Part shown: positions 29,692 to 38,104 of the stretch, one piece after another
Position numbering within the stretch: position 1 is the first letter of the stretch
Layout of the letters: every line of letters begins with the position of its first letter
Origin: a virus
Length of the DNA stretch: 38,767 nucleotides
Direction: 5' to 3' (one strand)
Virus record (IMG/VR): IMGVR_UViG_3300049846_001000
Coordinates: 1 to 38,767 of that record
Position numbers and translations under genes: made by a program
The notes under the pieces: generated by a model
Told to the model about the DNA's origin: nothing
Databases searched by the model: none
Seen by the model: the letters and a program-made list of their open reading frames with translations, nothing else

Positions 29692-30540
29692 ATGGAACTA
29701 ATTGCAATAAATACACCTGAGTGGCTAGCGGCAAGAAAGATTGGATCTTCAGATGCCGCGGCTATTCTAGGTGTCAATCCATACCGCACACCTTATCAAG
29801 TGTGGGCCGAGAAAATCGGCGCTGCAATGCCAAAAGAACCGAACGAGGCTATGCGCTGGGGACAACTACTAGAGCCAGTGATTGCTGGGGAGTTTGCAGC
29901 TCGAACTGGCCTAAAGGTTGAAAAAAATCTCACAATGAAAGTGCATCCAGAACTCGACTGGATGACTGCGACCGCAGATTTCTTTTGCTGGGACAATAAC
30001 GAGTTCGGCTTACTCGAAATAAAGAACGTAAACGCCTACAGCAAGGAATACGATGAGGAGTCTATCTCTGACTCCACCTCTGTACAGATAATGCACCAGA
30101 TGGCCGTTTACGGCCTTTCCTGGGCCTACTGTGCTTACCTGGTCGGGGGCAACAAGCTGCTATGGCAGAAAACGTACCGCTCTGAGCCACTAATCGCCAA
30201 AATAATTGAAGAGGAAAAGAAGTTCTGGCGGCTGGTGGAGGAGAAAACCCCTCCCCCATTTTCCGGGGGTGACGGGTCTCTGCTCGATGAAATGTACCCC
30301 ACTTCAAATCGGCAAGCAATACAACTCGATACTAGCGCGGACAGGCTCGCAAAGGCCTATCTAGCCGCTCGTGTTGAGGTCAAACACGCGGAAAGCAAAG
30401 CAGATGACCATTCAGCTAAGCTTAAAGCCAAGCTCGGCGGCTATGAAATGGGTTACGCCGGGTCATATCGAATCTCTTGGAAGTCGGTCGCAAATAAAAA
30501 CTATAGAAAATTCACAGTTACGGAGTTGAAAAATGTCTAA
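29692..30540 (+). CDS. YqaJ-type viral recombinase exonuclease
   Basis: 282 residues. YqaJ/lambda-exo fold motifs: RKIGSSDAAAILG (residues 15-27), Glu61 in MRWGQLLEP, Asp96 in TADF, Glu109-x-Lys111 in LLEIKN and Gln136 in a QIMHQMAVYG helix. All catalytic positions of the PD-(D/E)XK core are present. It resects double-strand ends 5' to 3' and hands the single strand to the RecT-type annealing protein encoded next, whose start overlaps its stop by eight bases. Such a pair is common in phages that recombine during replication. Confidence 0.88.
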   Translation: MELIAINTPEWLAARKIGSSDAAAILGVNPYRTPYQVWAEKIGAAMPKEPNEAMRWGQLLEPVIAGEFAARTGLKVEKNLTMKVHPELDWMTATADFFCWDNNEFGLLEIKNVNAYSKEYDEESISDSTSVQIMHQMAVYGLSWAYCAYLVGGNKLLWQKTYRSEPLIAKIIEEEKKFWRLVEEKTPPPFSGGDGSLLDEMYPTSNRQAIQLDTSADRLAKAYLAARVEVKHAESKADDHSAKLKAKLGGYEMGYAGSYRISWKSVANKNYRKFTVTELKNV

Positions 30541-31390
30541 ACCAAACGAGCTACTTGAAAAAGTTGTTGCAAAGGCAAATGGGGAAGCCGGTAAACCTCT
30601 AACTTACGGAGATCAGGTCAAATTATACCTAAGCAAACCTGAGGTACTTTCTGAAATTAGAACGGCACTACCGAAGCATATCACGGCGGAGCGGCTAGCC
30701 CGAATAGCGTTAACAACAATCAGGACAACACCTAAGCTGCTTGAGTGTTCCCTATCTTCGCTCATGGCCGCAATAATGCAGAGCGCACAGCTGGGGCTTG
30801 AACCCGGACTACTAGGGCACTGCTATTTTGTCCCCTTCCGCAACAATAAAACATGCCAATCTGAAGTTCAATTTATTATTGGATACAAGGGGTTAATCGA
30901 CTTAGCAAGACGCTCTGGTGACATCGTCACGATTGCGGCGGGGGCTATCTATTCGAACGATAAATTTCTGTACCGCAAAGGTTACGAGGAAATACTTGAG
31001 CACGAGCCAAACTTTCAAAATCGGGGGGAACTAATCGGGGTCTATGCCTACGCCACAACTAAGGATGGTGGCCGCTATGGCGACGTAATGACCTTGGAGG
31101 ATGTCAACCGCATTAAGTCCCGCTCTAAGGCTAAGGAGTTTGGGCCCTGGGTTACTGACTTTGAAGAAATGGCGAAAAAGACAGTGCTTAGACGCCTTGC
31201 TAAGTACTTGCCCCTATCCATAGAAATCAACACAAAAATACTTGAAGACGAGCAGAAAGAGTTTTCAGACGCGACCGAGATCGCGGTTAACATGCCGGAA
31301 CCATTGGCACTCGGGGGAGTGTACCAAGCGGTAACACCGGCCATTGTCGAGGGCGTTGGAGGGTTCGAGGAGGGGTCGTCAGATGTTTAG
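30533..31390 (+). CDS. recT: RecT-type single-strand annealing protein
   Basis: 285 residues. Typical RecT features: an N-terminal helical region, LLECSLSSLMAAIMQSAQLG and EPGLLGHCYFVPF, then EVQFIIGYKGLIDLARRSG, and the C-terminal WVTDFEEMAKKTVLRRLAKY segment with the conserved Lys/Arg. The length is normal. It anneals complementary single strands after exonuclease resection. Coupled to the exonuclease by overlap. The end is followed by a hairpin and a terminator-like stem, so it may close the first early operon. Confidence 0.92.
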   Translation: MSKPNELLEKVVAKANGEAGKPLTYGDQVKLYLSKPEVLSEIRTALPKHITAERLARIALTTIRTTPKLLECSLSSLMAAIMQSAQLGLEPGLLGHCYFVPFRNNKTCQSEVQFIIGYKGLIDLARRSGDIVTIAAGAIYSNDKFLYRKGYEEILEHEPNFQNRGELIGVYAYATTKDGGRYGDVMTLEDVNRIKSRSKAKEFGPWVTDFEEMAKKTVLRRLAKYLPLSIEINTKILEDEQKEFSDATEIAVNMPEPLALGGVYQAVTPAIVEGVGGFEEGSSDV

Positions 31391-31505: not shown

Positions 31506-32291
31506 ATGACTATCGTGGACATGGCAAAAATAGTTTTTAGCTTACGACTAGATCAAACAGTTGTAGATGCCTACAAGACTGAAGCTGAGAAGCAACAAAA
31601 AACGGTTTCTGCTCTGATGTCAGAGGTTTTAACTGAGAGTGCAAAACGTAATACGATCGTATTACGAAACGTATTACATCGTAATACGAAACGTATTACG
31701 AAATCAGAAACCGCTGCCCTTGCTTCTGCGTACAAGCATGCCGACAAGCACGGCAATGAAAGACACCAACTTGATGACTTTAATAATCTTTGGCTTTCAG
31801 ACTTTGAAACGAACGGAGTAAGAGAATTCTTTACCAAGCGAGGGCTAGAACCGGACTACTTTGAAGATGCTTTTCGAGTTCTTGACAATTGGTTCGATAA
31901 AAAGCCGGATGAACTAAACAAATCAAAATGCCACGCCCGCTACCTAATCGGCTGGCCCCTAGACCGCGCCTTAGAGAGTCAAACAATCGCACAAAAAGCT
32001 AAGAGATTTACACCACAGCACCAAATAGAGAAAGGCAGCAAACGCCTGAACGCATTTAAAACAAACATTGAAGGTCAATTATATGGCAACGAAAGAGAAT
32101 GTTTTGAAGTTAATGTACTACCTAATGATCGAGTTTCCACACTTCGAGACACACGCAGAGAAACAACAGCTTTGGTACGAGCATCTCGGCGGCTTCTCCC
32201 CGGAACAACTGAAGAGGGGGGCAGATCACTACCTAAGTACGAGCCGGAGTCCCCATCCGCCATCATTGCCGCAATTGATTGCGGCGATTAA
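31506..32291 (+). CDS. RHH-like DNA-binding protein, candidate replication initiator, carrying an internal palindrome array
   Basis: 261 residues if the ATG at 31506 is used; M6 (MAKIVFSLRLDQ) is an equally good start, and neither has a strong ribosome site. Residues 7-47 match a ribbon-helix-helix domain (KIVFSLRLD strand, then two helices). Residues 48-65 are encoded by five 9-bp palindromic copies, giving RNTIVLRNVLHRNTKRIT. Residues 70-170 form a helical domain with Trp and Asp/Glu (LDDFNNLWLSDFE, YLIGWPLDRALES). The last 60-odd residues overlap the next gene by 209 bases and look like an out-of-frame extension. Its place before a helicase-loader-like gene resembles the lambda O position. 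Initiator identity is inferred. Confidence 0.6.
   Translation: MTIVDMAKIVFSLRLDQTVVDAYKTEAEKQQKTVSALMSEVLTESAKRNTIVLRNVLHRNTKRITKSETAALASAYKHADKHGNERHQLDDFNNLWLSDFETNGVREFFTKRGLEPDYFEDAFRVLDNWFDKKPDELNKSKCHARYLIGWPLDRALESQTIAQKAKRFTPQHQIEKGSKRLNAFKTNIEGQLYGNERECFEVNVLPNDRVSTLRDTRRETTALVRASRRLLPGTTEEGGRSLPKYEPESPSAIIAAIDCGD
31647..31700 (+). repeat. Five-copy CGTAATACG/CGTATTACG array inside the RHH-type gene (candidate origin iterons or operator)
   Basis: Copies start at 31647, 31658, 31670, 31680 and 31692, that is at 11, 12, 10 and 12 bases, about one helical turn each. Copies 1 and 2 fuse into a perfect 20-bp palindrome (31647-31666). Copies 4 and 5 form a 9-bp inverted repeat around AAA. 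Copy 3 has one mismatch at its last base. The orientation is mixed, as for sites of RHH dimers. Lambda keeps its iterons inside the initiator gene O, and this arrangement is comparable. Confidence 0.8.
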
Positions 32292-32442
32292 GGACACTGA
32301 GCCACGCAAGCGGTCTGTTGTTAGCTACAGCAAAGAAATGCTTACTTATAGTGAGAAGGAAATACAGCGCAAAGTTTGGGAAGAGGCGCGAGCAAGATAT
32401 CCGCACTTATTTAATAAGTCGGGTGGAGAAACAGACGCATGA
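32083..32442 (+). CDS. Helicase-loader-like replication protein
   Basis: Start placed at MATKENVLKLMYYL (ATG at 32083) because GAAGG lies about eight bases before; the frame is open from 32068. About 119 residues. MMYYLMIEFPHFE-type helices, the LWYEHLGGFSPEQLKRGADHYL segment and SPHPPSLPQLIAAIKD match the small phage proteins that load or regulate a replicative helicase (G39P-like). A C-terminal WEEARARYPHLF helix follows. It lies in another frame than the RHH gene, overlapping 209 bases of it, and its end is coupled by ATGA to a regulator. Loader role is inferred from pattern. Confidence 0.65.
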   Translation: MATKENVLKLMYYLMIEFPHFETHAEKQQLWYEHLGGFSPEQLKRGADHYLSTSRSPHPPSLPQLIAAIKDTEPRKRSVVSYSKEMLTYSEKEIQRKVWEEARARYPHLFNKSGGETDA

Positions 32443-32693
32443 TTATTCTGCTGCGCCCCTTGAAATGGGGCAGACGTTGTCATGTTTTGCGAGCGTATAA
32501 AGGCATTTCTGCTGAATATATGGCCAAAAAGACTTTGATTTCAAAATATCGGTATAGCCGGTTTGAAAACGGGTGGTGCCGGTTGTCTGAGGAAGAGGAG
32601 CGATTAGTTGCGCAGGTTTTAGGAGTGGTTAAAGAGGAACTCTTTAGCCCGGTTTTAATTAGTGACACAGAAACACACGAGGATACGTTATGA
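32439..32693 (+). CDS. XRE-type helix-turn-helix regulator
   Basis: 84 residues. A helix-turn-helix pattern runs over about residues 14-60: HVLRAYKGISAEYMAKKTL, then SKYRYSRFENGWCRLSEEE, where YSRFENGWCRLS stands at the end of the recognition helix. The ATG overlaps the previous stop by ATGA and its stop overlaps the next gene by ATGA. It could control the early operon; the candidate operator at 29118-29143 and the 31647 array are untested targets. No dimerisation or RecA-cleavage domain is present, so it is not a classical CI-type repressor. Confidence 0.7.
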   Translation: MIILLRPLKWGRRCHVLRAYKGISAEYMAKKTLISKYRYSRFENGWCRLSEEEERLVAQVLGVVKEELFSPVLISDTETHEDTL

Positions 32694-33345: not shown

Positions 33346-34347
33346 ATGCTAAGTTCAGCATCTAAACATTCACATTTGGGCTTTAAATCAGTGAAACCGC
33401 GGGTAGTAGCACGCAAGTTTTACACGATAACTAACGCTGTAGAGCTTGCGACACTGCCCGTGCTCATTGTTCAATTCTTAGATGCTGAATGCGTAACTGC
33501 GCATACTCACAAGGCTTACTCAAATTCGCTCAAACATTTCCAGAATTTTTTAGCCGGGAAATGTAACAGGGCTGTTACAGTTCTGAGCTATAGTGATGTT
33601 TCCAGAGCTTTCGTAAAAGACTTTTACAACTATAGACTACTGGTTGAATCTCAGGCATCAGCGGAACTGAGATTACGAGTTGTAAAGTCATTTTGCAGCT
33701 GGATGCACCGCCGGTATTCTGTAGAAAATCACGGCATTAATGTTTCAACTAACTTAGCACCATCCATTGACTTTAAAGGGCTTACGTCGGCGCAATATCT
33801 CGCCTTTACTGCTACTGCAAAAAAACAAAAATCTCCGCTGCGCCGCTTTATTCCTATGCTGCTAGTGGGCACCGGTTTAAGAAATAATGAAGCACGACAT
33901 TTAACGCTAGCTAACATCTCGAAGGATGCTAAGTGGCTGCTGCGCGTTAAGGGCAAAGGCGGCAAGATTCGTAACATTCCCCTTACGGACGAAACAACAA
34001 CCGAATTACAGATATATATGTGGTGGAGACAAGATTTTGGTTCCCCCCCTGATTCCCCGCTCCTTCTCTCCCGCGTGGGTGGTCACCTGGGCAACAAAAC
34101 TATCTGGCGAATTGTGCAAGTAATTGGCGCACTGTCGGGGCTACCCGAAGATGTTTCACACCCCCACGCTCTTAGACACACGTTCGCCTATCGCACGCTA
34201 GAGCATCTGGAAAGTACAGGTATAAAGCCGGGCCGCGCGCTTAATATTCTTAAAGACATTCTTGGGCACTCCAGCATTAATACAACTATGCGTTACTTGG
34301 GCAACCAAGAAGAAGACGTGTTTGAGCTGATGCGGGGAATGAAATGA
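33346..34347 (+). CDS. int: Tyrosine recombinase / integrase
   Basis: 333 residues. N-terminal SAM-like core-binding domain (about 35-125) and a C-terminal catalytic domain with the full set: Arg179 (VGTGLRNNEARHL), Lys204/207 (GKGGK), His274-x-x-Arg277 (HALRHTF), His308 (LGHSS) and Tyr317 (TTMRYLG). The enzyme would be active in strand exchange. It lies in the middle of the early block, with no recognisable attachment site beside it and no CI-like repressor in the window. A role in dimer resolution or integration is possible. It ends in an ATGA overlap with the DUF1064-like gene. Confidence 0.88.
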   Translation: MLSSASKHSHLGFKSVKPRVVARKFYTITNAVELATLPVLIVQFLDAECVTAHTHKAYSNSLKHFQNFLAGKCNRAVTVLSYSDVSRAFVKDFYNYRLLVESQASAELRLRVVKSFCSWMHRRYSVENHGINVSTNLAPSIDFKGLTSAQYLAFTATAKKQKSPLRRFIPMLLVGTGLRNNEARHLTLANISKDAKWLLRVKGKGGKIRNIPLTDETTTELQIYMWWRQDFGSPPDSPLLLSRVGGHLGNKTIWRIVQVIGALSGLPEDVSHPHALRHTFAYRTLEHLESTGIKPGRALNILKDILGHSSINTTMRYLGNQEEDVFELMRGMK

Positions 34348-34679
34348 GTGTGCAATTTAGCGCAAAGAAACCGCACAAATATAAGGCGGTGCCAACGTGG
34401 GTGGATAATATTAGATTTGACTCTAAAAGAGAGGCGCTGCGGTATACGGAACTAAGAACGCTTCAATCGGCAGGGAAAATCAAAGATTTAAAGCTTCAAG
34501 TGATTTTTCAATTCTTTAGCGCCGGTATTGAAATAGACAGATGGCGCATTGATTTTACGTACGTAGAAAACGGCAAGAAGATCGCAGACGACCCCACCGG
34601 GTTTCTAACAGGCAAAAAGATGAAACACATGAAGTACTTTGAACAGCAGTATCCTGATTGGGAGTTAAGATTAACATGA
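34344..34679 (+). CDS. DUF1064-like protein, possible PD-(D/E)XK nuclease with altered site
   Basis: 111 residues. KYKAVPTWVDNIRFDSKREALRY at the start is the DUF1064 signature found in small phage nuclease-like (endonuclease or resolvase-like) proteins. In other members a later segment reads like DF...V.DVKG. Here RIDFTYVENG is followed by IADDPTGFLTG, so the expected lysine is a threonine. The fold is likely kept but catalysis could be lost or altered. It overlaps the recombinase by ATGA and the next small gene by ATGA. Confidence 0.75.
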   Translation: MSVQFSAKKPHKYKAVPTWVDNIRFDSKREALRYTELRTLQSAGKIKDLKLQVIFQFFSAGIEIDRWRIDFTYVENGKKIADDPTGFLTGKKMKHMKYFEQQYPDWELRLT

Positions 34680-34756
34680 AATATCTAGCACTATGGTTTA
34701 TCGCGGCATGGTTCGCGGTGGTTTGGTTCGCAAACTTAAACAAATACGACAGATGA
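34676..34756 (+). CDS. 26-residue hydrophobic membrane peptide coupled to GH5
   Basis: A short frame starts at the ATG at 34676, which overlaps the previous stop by ATGA, and ends at TGA overlapping the next ATG (34753-34756). It begins MKYLALWFIAAWF and is hydrophobic almost throughout, with a charged end (NLNKYDR). This looks like a signal anchor or single transmembrane segment. The following GH5 enzyme has no signal peptide of its own. The peptide might act separately, or be joined to GH5 by a -1 frameshift (CTTAAAC lies near its end). Only the ORF and its coupling are seen. Confidence 0.55.
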   Translation: MKYLALWFIAAWFAVVWFANLNKYDR

Positions 34757-35658
34757 AAGGCTATAACATCGGACCGTTCACAACAAAAGCAGAGGCTGAA
34801 GCATGCGTCGACTCAGGCGCTCAGCTTTTGCGTTGGCATATACAATTTGGCACACAGAACTGGCCATACGATGGCCCGTGGCAGTCGTATACATCAAACT
34901 TAGAGGCCTTTATAGCCCATTGCAGGAGGGAGATTCTTCCAGCGACTAGAGGCCGGGCTCAAGTTATTATTAACGTGCTTGATGCCCCTGGCGGTGTTGA
35001 TTCTAGGCGCCGGTTAAACTGTCTCAAAAATGCTGTGCAGCGGGCTTGGTTAGTCGCTACGTTTAATAGATTAGCAACAGAATTTAAAGACGAGCCTGAT
35101 ATTTTGGGCTACTCGCTAAATGAACCGGGCGGTGATGCTAGCGAGCTTAAGCGGTTGATGTTTAGTCTTTGGGCTACTGTTACGAGAGTCAATGACCAGA
35201 AGATATTTTGCGTAACTAACTCATTTGGACAGCCCGGAAATTTTAGCGACATTGCATTCATAGACGCGCCAAATGCTTGGCATGAGGTGCATTGCTACGA
35301 GCCTATGAGTTTTACGCATCAGGGTATACCGGGTTATGGATATGGTGTCGCGAAAAAATATCCTAGCTTAACTTTTGGCAAGAGGCGATTAGAGCGCAAA
35401 CTTAGGGATGTTTTTAGGTTCCAACGTAAGCATCCTGGCGCAAACATATTCGTTGGTGAATTTGGCGTTTCGACCGTGGCTGATGATGCGTCACGATTAA
35501 ATTATATTCGCGATTGTAAAGAGATTTTTGATAGTCACGGCTATCACTGGGCCTTTCACTCATGGGGCGCTGGCCATTGGTGGAGTCCGAGTGATGATAT
35601 CATTAATTTGTTGAGATATCGATATTTCTTAGGGGTAACTCCCCCAATTGAGGGTTAA
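34753..35658 (+). CDS. Glycoside hydrolase family 5 (cellulase/mannanase-type) enzyme
   Basis: 301 residues from the ATG at 34753, chosen over the frame opening at 34693 because it is coupled by ATGA to the membrane peptide. GH5 TIM-barrel signs: Arg27 in LLRWH, acid/base Glu124 in SLNEPGG, HEVHCYEP around 177-184, nucleophile Glu236 in FVGEFGVS, and Trp in WAFHSWGAG (267-275). The catalytic set is complete, so it should cut beta-linked polysaccharide (cellulose, mannan or similar; the substrate cannot be read here). Viral GH5 enzymes with mannanase activity are known from soil viromes. No signal peptide. Confidence 0.85.
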   Translation: MKGYNIGPFTTKAEAEACVDSGAQLLRWHIQFGTQNWPYDGPWQSYTSNLEAFIAHCRREILPATRGRAQVIINVLDAPGGVDSRRRLNCLKNAVQRAWLVATFNRLATEFKDEPDILGYSLNEPGGDASELKRLMFSLWATVTRVNDQKIFCVTNSFGQPGNFSDIAFIDAPNAWHEVHCYEPMSFTHQGIPGYGYGVAKKYPSLTFGKRRLERKLRDVFRFQRKHPGANIFVGEFGVSTVADDASRLNYIRDCKEIFDSHGYHWAFHSWGAGHWWSPSDDIINLLRYRYFLGVTPPIEG

Positions 35659-37721: not shown

Positions 37722-38012
37722 ATGAAATTAGAACCGTTATACGACAGGGTTATTGTCGAAAAGATTCACGAAGATGAAATGTCACCAGGGGGGCTTTATA
37801 TTCCCGAACAGGCCAAAGAGCGTCCTTTTAGGGGCCGGGTGCTTGCTGTAGGCCGTGGCAGAGTTTTGAGTAATGGAGAGATTTTGCCGCCTACTATTAA
37901 GGAAGGTGATGAAATTATTTTCGGCAAATATGCGGGCTCCGAGGTCAAGATTGATGGTAAGCACCTGCTTTTGTTGAAAGAAGATGATATCTTTGCTCGG
38001 GTGAATAGTTAG
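37722..38012 (+). CDS. groES: GroES-like co-chaperonin
   Basis: 96 residues, the usual size. N-terminal LEPLYDRVIVEKIHEDEMS, the mobile-loop region with SPGGLYIPEQAKERPFRG and then RVLAVGRGRV, KEGDEIIFGKYAGSEVKIDGK and LLLLKEDDIFA follow the cochaperonin pattern strand by strand. The GGL sequence in the loop should contact the host GroEL. Ribosome site GAGGGGGG is close. Phages encode GroES homologues or gp31-like proteins to fold their capsid protein with host GroEL; no GroEL gene is in this window. Confidence 0.92.
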   Translation: MKLEPLYDRVIVEKIHEDEMSPGGLYIPEQAKERPFRGRVLAVGRGRVLSNGEILPPTIKEGDEIIFGKYAGSEVKIDGKHLLLLKEDDIFARVNS

Positions 38013-38030: not shown

Positions 38031-38104
38031 TGTGCCGGATAGGATTTGAACCTATGACTTCCGAGGTAGCATCTCGACGTTCTGTCCTGCTGAACTACCG
38101 GCAC
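38031..38104 (-). tRNA. tRNA with anticodon GCU (class I, no CCA encoded)
   Basis: Reading the minus strand, a perfect 7-bp acceptor stem (GTGCCGG/CCGGCAC), a D stem (GTTC/GAAC), a 5-bp anticodon stem and a 5-bp T stem (ATAGG/CCTAT) with loop TTCAAAT make a complete cloverleaf of 74 bases with discriminator A. The anticodon loop is ATGCTAC, giving GCU, which reads serine codons AGC/AGU. The variable loop has only five bases, whereas bacterial serine tRNAs are class II with a long arm. The D loop has A at position 20 and the anticodon has C35 and U36, the identity set of arginine tRNAs. The charged amino acid is therefore uncertain. It is antisense to the surrounding genes. Confidence 0.85.

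Follow-up and report, generated by a model that had tools for sequence, protein, structure and literature searches.

A candidate replication origin inside a phage gene for a putative initiator with a ribbon-helix-helix-like domain

Five short, near-palindromic boxes stand in a row inside a coding frame of the IMG/VR virus record IMGVR_UViG_3300049846_001000, and the locus raises the question of what such an array does there and which protein binds it. We analysed positions 1–38,767 of the record, a stretch of 38,767 nt that we refer to as the window. Altogether, our results favor a model whereby the array is probably the iteron part of a phage replication origin that lies within the gene encoding its own initiator, with the ribbon-helix-helix (RHH)-like N-terminal domain of that initiator as the predicted binder.

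The box array and its coding context

The array and its parts are as follows.

31647–31700, no strand: array of five 9-bp CGTAWTACG boxes, candidate origin iterons (motif search, clustering, codon phase)
31647–31655: box 1, CGTAATACG, exact
31658–31666: box 2, CGTATTACG, exact
31670–31678: box 3, CGTATTACA, one mismatch
31680–31688: box 4, CGTAATACG, exact
31692–31700: box 5, CGTATTACG, exact
31647–31666, no strand: boxes 1 and 2, joined as a perfect 20-bp palindrome

The preliminary description had reported five 9-bp copies in mixed orientation within a coding frame, two of them fused into a perfect 20-bp palindrome. Both the array, which corresponds to residues 48–65 of the 31506–32291 open reading frame (ORF), and the palindrome were borne out. 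Five sites are indeed present, but just four are exact copies, and because the box is palindromic apart from its central base, the mixed orientation comes down to an A or a T in the center. From box to box, the starts are 11, 12, 10, and 12 positions apart.

The box array is far beyond chance. When the whole window was searched, a single site outside the array (at 37735) came within one mismatch of the box, and the array was the sole cluster of at least three copies of any 9-mer inside 80 bp. Against the four copies observed, 300 simulated windows (first-order Markov) yielded at most three copies within 60 bp, and this in a single simulation. The boxes are read in codon phases 0, 2, 2, 0, and 0 (translated as RNT, VLR, VLH, RNT, and RIT), and the 18 codons of the array belong to the worst 1.3% for codon preference among 18-codon stretches of the window's genes. 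The use of two codon phases together with poorly preferred codons argues for a constraint at the level of the DNA and not of the protein; an explanation of the array as a protein repeat is ruled out by the different phases in which its boxes are read. The array is 65% AT. The richest 40 bp nearby, approximately 170 bp upstream, are 72.5% AT, a level that 2% of the window reaches, and a scan of the array's surroundings revealed no strongly AT-rich tract flanking it. GC skew was not used as a pointer to the origin, as its turn near 28 kb coincides with a change of gene strand.

The gene and its replication neighborhood

The ORF that holds the array is placed among the following features.

29692–30540, + strand: YqaJ/RecE-like exonuclease (PF09588, E 7e-26; phrog_434)
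30533–31390, + strand: RecT single-strand annealing protein (PF03837, E 5e-58)
31506–32291, + strand: candidate replication initiator gene, 261 aa, the start of which may be the ATG at 31521 (position between RecT and the helicase loader; codon preference)
31521–31649, + strand: RHH-like N-terminal domain, residues 6–48 (sub-threshold profile matches)
31872–31982, + strand: possible C-terminal initiator domain, residues 123–159, W...P...RYLxxW (weak profile match)
32083–32442, + strand: G39P-type helicase loader (phrog_2289, helicase loader, E 3e-6)
32439–32693, + strand: small helix-turn-helix regulator downstream of the loader (HTH_31, E 5e-5; phrog_3)

With the order exonuclease, RecT, candidate initiator, and G39P-like loader, the gene stands directly before the helicase loader in a replication cluster, as in the lambda O and SPP1 gp38 layout, and the boxes directly follow the N-terminal domain and precede the C-terminal half. 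The loader is linked by phmmer (E 2e-5) to the loader of L005 (Inhibitor_G39P), a virus discussed below. Initiator ORF and loader share 209 nt, read in different frames (32083–32291), over which the codon score per codon is gene-like in the initiator frame (0.138) and low but positive in the loader frame (0.033); as both frames score positive, both genes may be real. Searches of IMG/VR, GTDB genomes, and phage records returned no homologues of the candidate initiator, and none of the loader were found in IMG/VR. Farther along, the window contains a Holliday junction resolvase-like gene (34344–34679; phrog_190, E 1e-14), which SPP1 has too, and an ORF at 34693–35658 that by eye is glycoside hydrolase-like (NEPGG and GEFG motifs) and has no PHROG match. 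Near the window end lie genes for a GroES co-chaperonin (37722–38012) and a tRNA-Ser(GCT) (38031–38104).

The nearest viral RecT relatives in IMG/VR served as the comparison set. In L002, L003, L005, L006, and L008, a replication-initiation or DnaD-like protein follows RecT directly or one gene later, and in L005 and L006 the protein in this slot is followed by a loader matching phrog_2289. L002 has the order exonuclease, RecT, initiator, small gene in the loader position, helix-turn-helix gene, and integrase. The replication-initiation proteins in this slot, together with the adjacent loader, thus argue that the 31506–32291 gene occupies the initiator slot. Repeats lie within the slot gene in four of six relatives: those in L005 are 22-bp iterons, while L004 and L008 have 12-bp units, which are codon multiples and could equally be protein repeats; the fourth is L003. 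The slot genes of L002 and L006 contain none.

The C-terminal half of the protein resembles the C-termini of phage initiators, a likeness that is suggestive only. When a small profile of such C-termini was compared with 179 window ORFs, the candidate initiator scored best, though weakly (E 0.3), and its C-terminal half can be aligned by eye with the C-termini of the initiators of L046 and Vibrio phage VaK, the latter of which has five 24-bp iterons inside its gene. The sole family to match this half (phrog_17962, E 0.001) was set aside, being of unknown function and absent from the other initiator records tested.

Most RHH proteins act as repressors, and the array might accordingly be an operator at which the protein, bound inside its own gene, blocks transcription of itself and the loader and is not an initiator. 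Arrays in two other records (L047 and L067, described below) occupy an operator-like position directly upstream of an RHH-like gene. Here, however, the array lies at least 126 bp inside the coding sequence, where a promoter-like site is not above chance, the gene is in the initiator slot beside a helicase loader with no other initiator found in the genes tested, and the loci with twin boxes in other viruses are mostly initiator genes. We therefore consider an operator unlikely. A role as a negative regulator that competes with a separate initiator for the iterons appears very unlikely; the precedent is PrpA, an RHH antitoxin of plasmid pMBL6842 that binds iterons and blocks the initiator (PMC7848731). 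PrpA is likewise an RHH protein at an origin-iteron array, but it is a separate negative regulator and not an initiator. In the phage, by contrast, the array lies inside the 31506–32291 gene and not beside another, and no separate initiator was found among the early-region genes tested, although the record may be incomplete. No toxin gene adjoins the candidate initiator, its neighbors being RecT and the loader.

Short-repeat arrays bound by RHH proteins are usual at partition sites, and in one other virus (L062) a similar array precedes a gene whose product combines an RHH-like N-terminus with a ParA domain. That the array in the phage is a partition site for a centromere-binding protein of the ParG or omega type is nonetheless very unlikely: the neighbors tested (exonuclease, RecT, loader, helix-turn-helix regulator, transglycosylase, integrase, and Holliday junction resolvase) comprise recombination and replication genes and no ParA-like gene, and the phage has an integrase.

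The same box in other viruses and the N-terminal domain

A search of IMG/VR with the twin-box pattern CGTAWTACG-N(1-4)-CGTAWTACG found it in 31 contigs, in 21 of which it lies in the linker of winged-helix phage initiators, just past the N-terminal domain, an assignment made partly by eye from translations. These initiators are of the DUF1376-like and Lin1244 types, the twin-box linker is mostly written ...RWxK...YERNTNVIR..., and of the 30 ORFs that lie over arrays, 17 match phrog_9327 (primosomal protein). The mirror (reversed) pattern, used as a control, occurred in 14 contigs and in an initiator in one of them (L090), a difference with a Fisher p of 0.0002, or of 0.04 with one large family collapsed to a single case. 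From the sequences compared here, CGTAWTACG boxes in the linkers of DUF1376/Lin1244 initiators appear to be a recurrent origin signal, an association of which we found no description.

Several of these loci have features of their own. The control hit L090 (3140–4354) encodes a DUF1376-type initiator with twin GCATWATGC boxes, that is, the same layout with another palindrome. In L044 and L048, the array is outside but near the initiator gene, while the box matches in L049 and L100 were dismissed as chance, arising from codon repeats in tyrosine-rich proteins. Twin or multiple linker boxes were seen in L046, L051, L053, L055–L061, L063, L065, and L066, and further in L068, L071–L075, L077, L078, and L103.

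The gene order and the occurrence of the same box in the linkers of other phage initiators make an origin likely and lend good support to the earlier proposal of a candidate replication origin. However, winged-helix initiators have this box too, so its presence by itself does not identify an RHH protein as the binder, and the argument turns on the N-terminal domain. A winged-helix N-terminus is usual for initiators with in-gene origins of the lambda O and SPP1 gp38 layout, and the candidate initiator has no winged-helix match. No curated profile matched its N-terminus above cut-off. Below cut-off, residues 6–48 match the BrnA antitoxin (18.8 bits against a cut-off of 26.1), DUF6364 (19.7 against 27.3), two Arc-like repressor PHROGs, and a HicB-like and another antitoxin PHROG; nearly all annotated weak matches of these residues are RHH families. 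That several independent RHH families agree on these residues makes the case for an RHH domain, which we regard as plausible.

Structure prediction does not support this assignment. AlphaFold gave a useless full-length model (mean pLDDT 34.5) and, for the domain alone and without an alignment, a model of high pLDDT in which residues 12–49 of the fragment are one long helix with the strand absent, a result that does not confirm an RHH fold. The strand of an RHH domain, however, takes shape only on dimerization, and a lone chain is difficult to predict. Foldseek of the domain model against the PDB returned nothing, and PDB sequence searches with the window protein returned nothing relevant. The preliminary description's RHH-type protein thus keeps the consistent family matches on its side and has against it that all of them are sub-threshold and that the model is without a strand.

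RHH-like genes also stand by similar arrays in five other records, in which a winged-helix initiator over the array is absent. In L047, the array is directly upstream of an RHH-like gene that matches PDB 2kel and Arc-like repressors weakly. In L062 (2–656), it is upstream of the gene with the ParA domain mentioned above; the gene on the array's other side has a DciA domain. In L067 (4791–5357), which is probably an archaeal virus, the array is directly upstream of an RHH-like gene, and the next gene encodes an MCM replicative helicase. L101 (910–1503) has a looser related array inside an RHH-like gene, and in L102 (14280–14595) a 9-bp tandem array runs from the end of an RHH-like gene until the contig breaks within it. 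The RHH call in L067, L101, and L102 was made mostly by eye. Because winged-helix initiators share the same box, we treat these five records as leads, not proof.

It is conceivable, if rather unlikely, that the origin lies within the gene but that its boxes are bound by another part of the protein or by a host factor, the RHH look being misleading. In its favor, unrelated winged-helix initiators share this box, as though box and domain were independent of each other, the RHH matches are sub-threshold, and the AlphaFold model shows no strand. The alternative accords less well with the near-exclusive appearance of RHH families among the annotated weak matches, and with the five records in which an RHH-like gene accompanies a similar array that no winged-helix initiator overlies. 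We accordingly retain the RHH-like N-terminal domain as the predicted binder.

A model for the origin and its relation to known systems

In our model of the origin, dimers of the N-terminal RHH-like domain would bind the near-palindromic boxes and, because the box steps are close to one helical turn, would do so on one face of the helix. With the five boxes filled, a nucleoprotein complex would form, and the protein's C-terminal half would recruit the adjacent G39P-type loader, which would deliver the replicative helicase; origin melting and helicase loading would follow from this assembly. No helicase gene was seen beside the candidate initiator, suggesting that the replicative helicase is probably the host's DnaB. 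Once bound, the initiator may in addition dampen transcription of the gene that encodes it.

The placement of iterons within an initiator gene, proposed earlier as a new layout, is already known from lambda O, SPP1 gene 38, and relatives with the same slot. In SPP1, oriL lies within gene 38 and the loader is gp39 (PMC6316719); as in the phage analysed here, origin repeats are within the initiator gene, and exonuclease, annealing protein, initiator, and G39P-type loader are among the early replication genes, but a helicase gene was not found in the present phage and its N-terminal domain looks like RHH. In lambda, iterons are in the middle of the O gene and the next gene encodes a second replication protein (PMC7466680), although lambda has four iterons and an adjacent AT-rich tract, whereas the boxes here are shorter and near-palindromic and such a tract is absent. 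The DUF1376 (YdaU-like)/Lin1244 initiators with twin boxes (for example, L056, L057, L058, and L072) share the 9-bp box, a step of approximately 11 bp, and the location in a linker after the N-terminal domain, and differ in having a winged-helix-type N-terminus. Vibrio phage VaK/H20-type initiators similarly have in-gene repeats between an N-terminal DNA-binding domain and a W...P...W C-terminal domain, but with a helix-turn-helix N-terminus and 24-bp iterons.

What would be new, if real and within the scope of the open literature, is an RHH-like N-terminus as the DNA-binding domain of an initiator; in the open-access papers covered, subscription papers being outside the scope, we found no RHH replication initiator. 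We tentatively speculate, at somewhat less than even confidence, that RHH domains can be the DNA-binding part of initiators and that one is here joined, with its own box array, to an initiator C-terminus to give a self-contained in-gene origin. The same box would then be read by two unrelated folds, the winged helix in DUF1376-type initiators and RHH here and possibly in L067 beside the MCM helicase, and how the two folds read a common site could be tested on it directly. The association between box and initiator also provides a simple DNA pattern for locating origins in uncultivated phages. If our reading is true, it would mean that a repressor-type fold can replace the DNA-reading part of phage initiators without a change in layout, iteron spacing, or loader partner.
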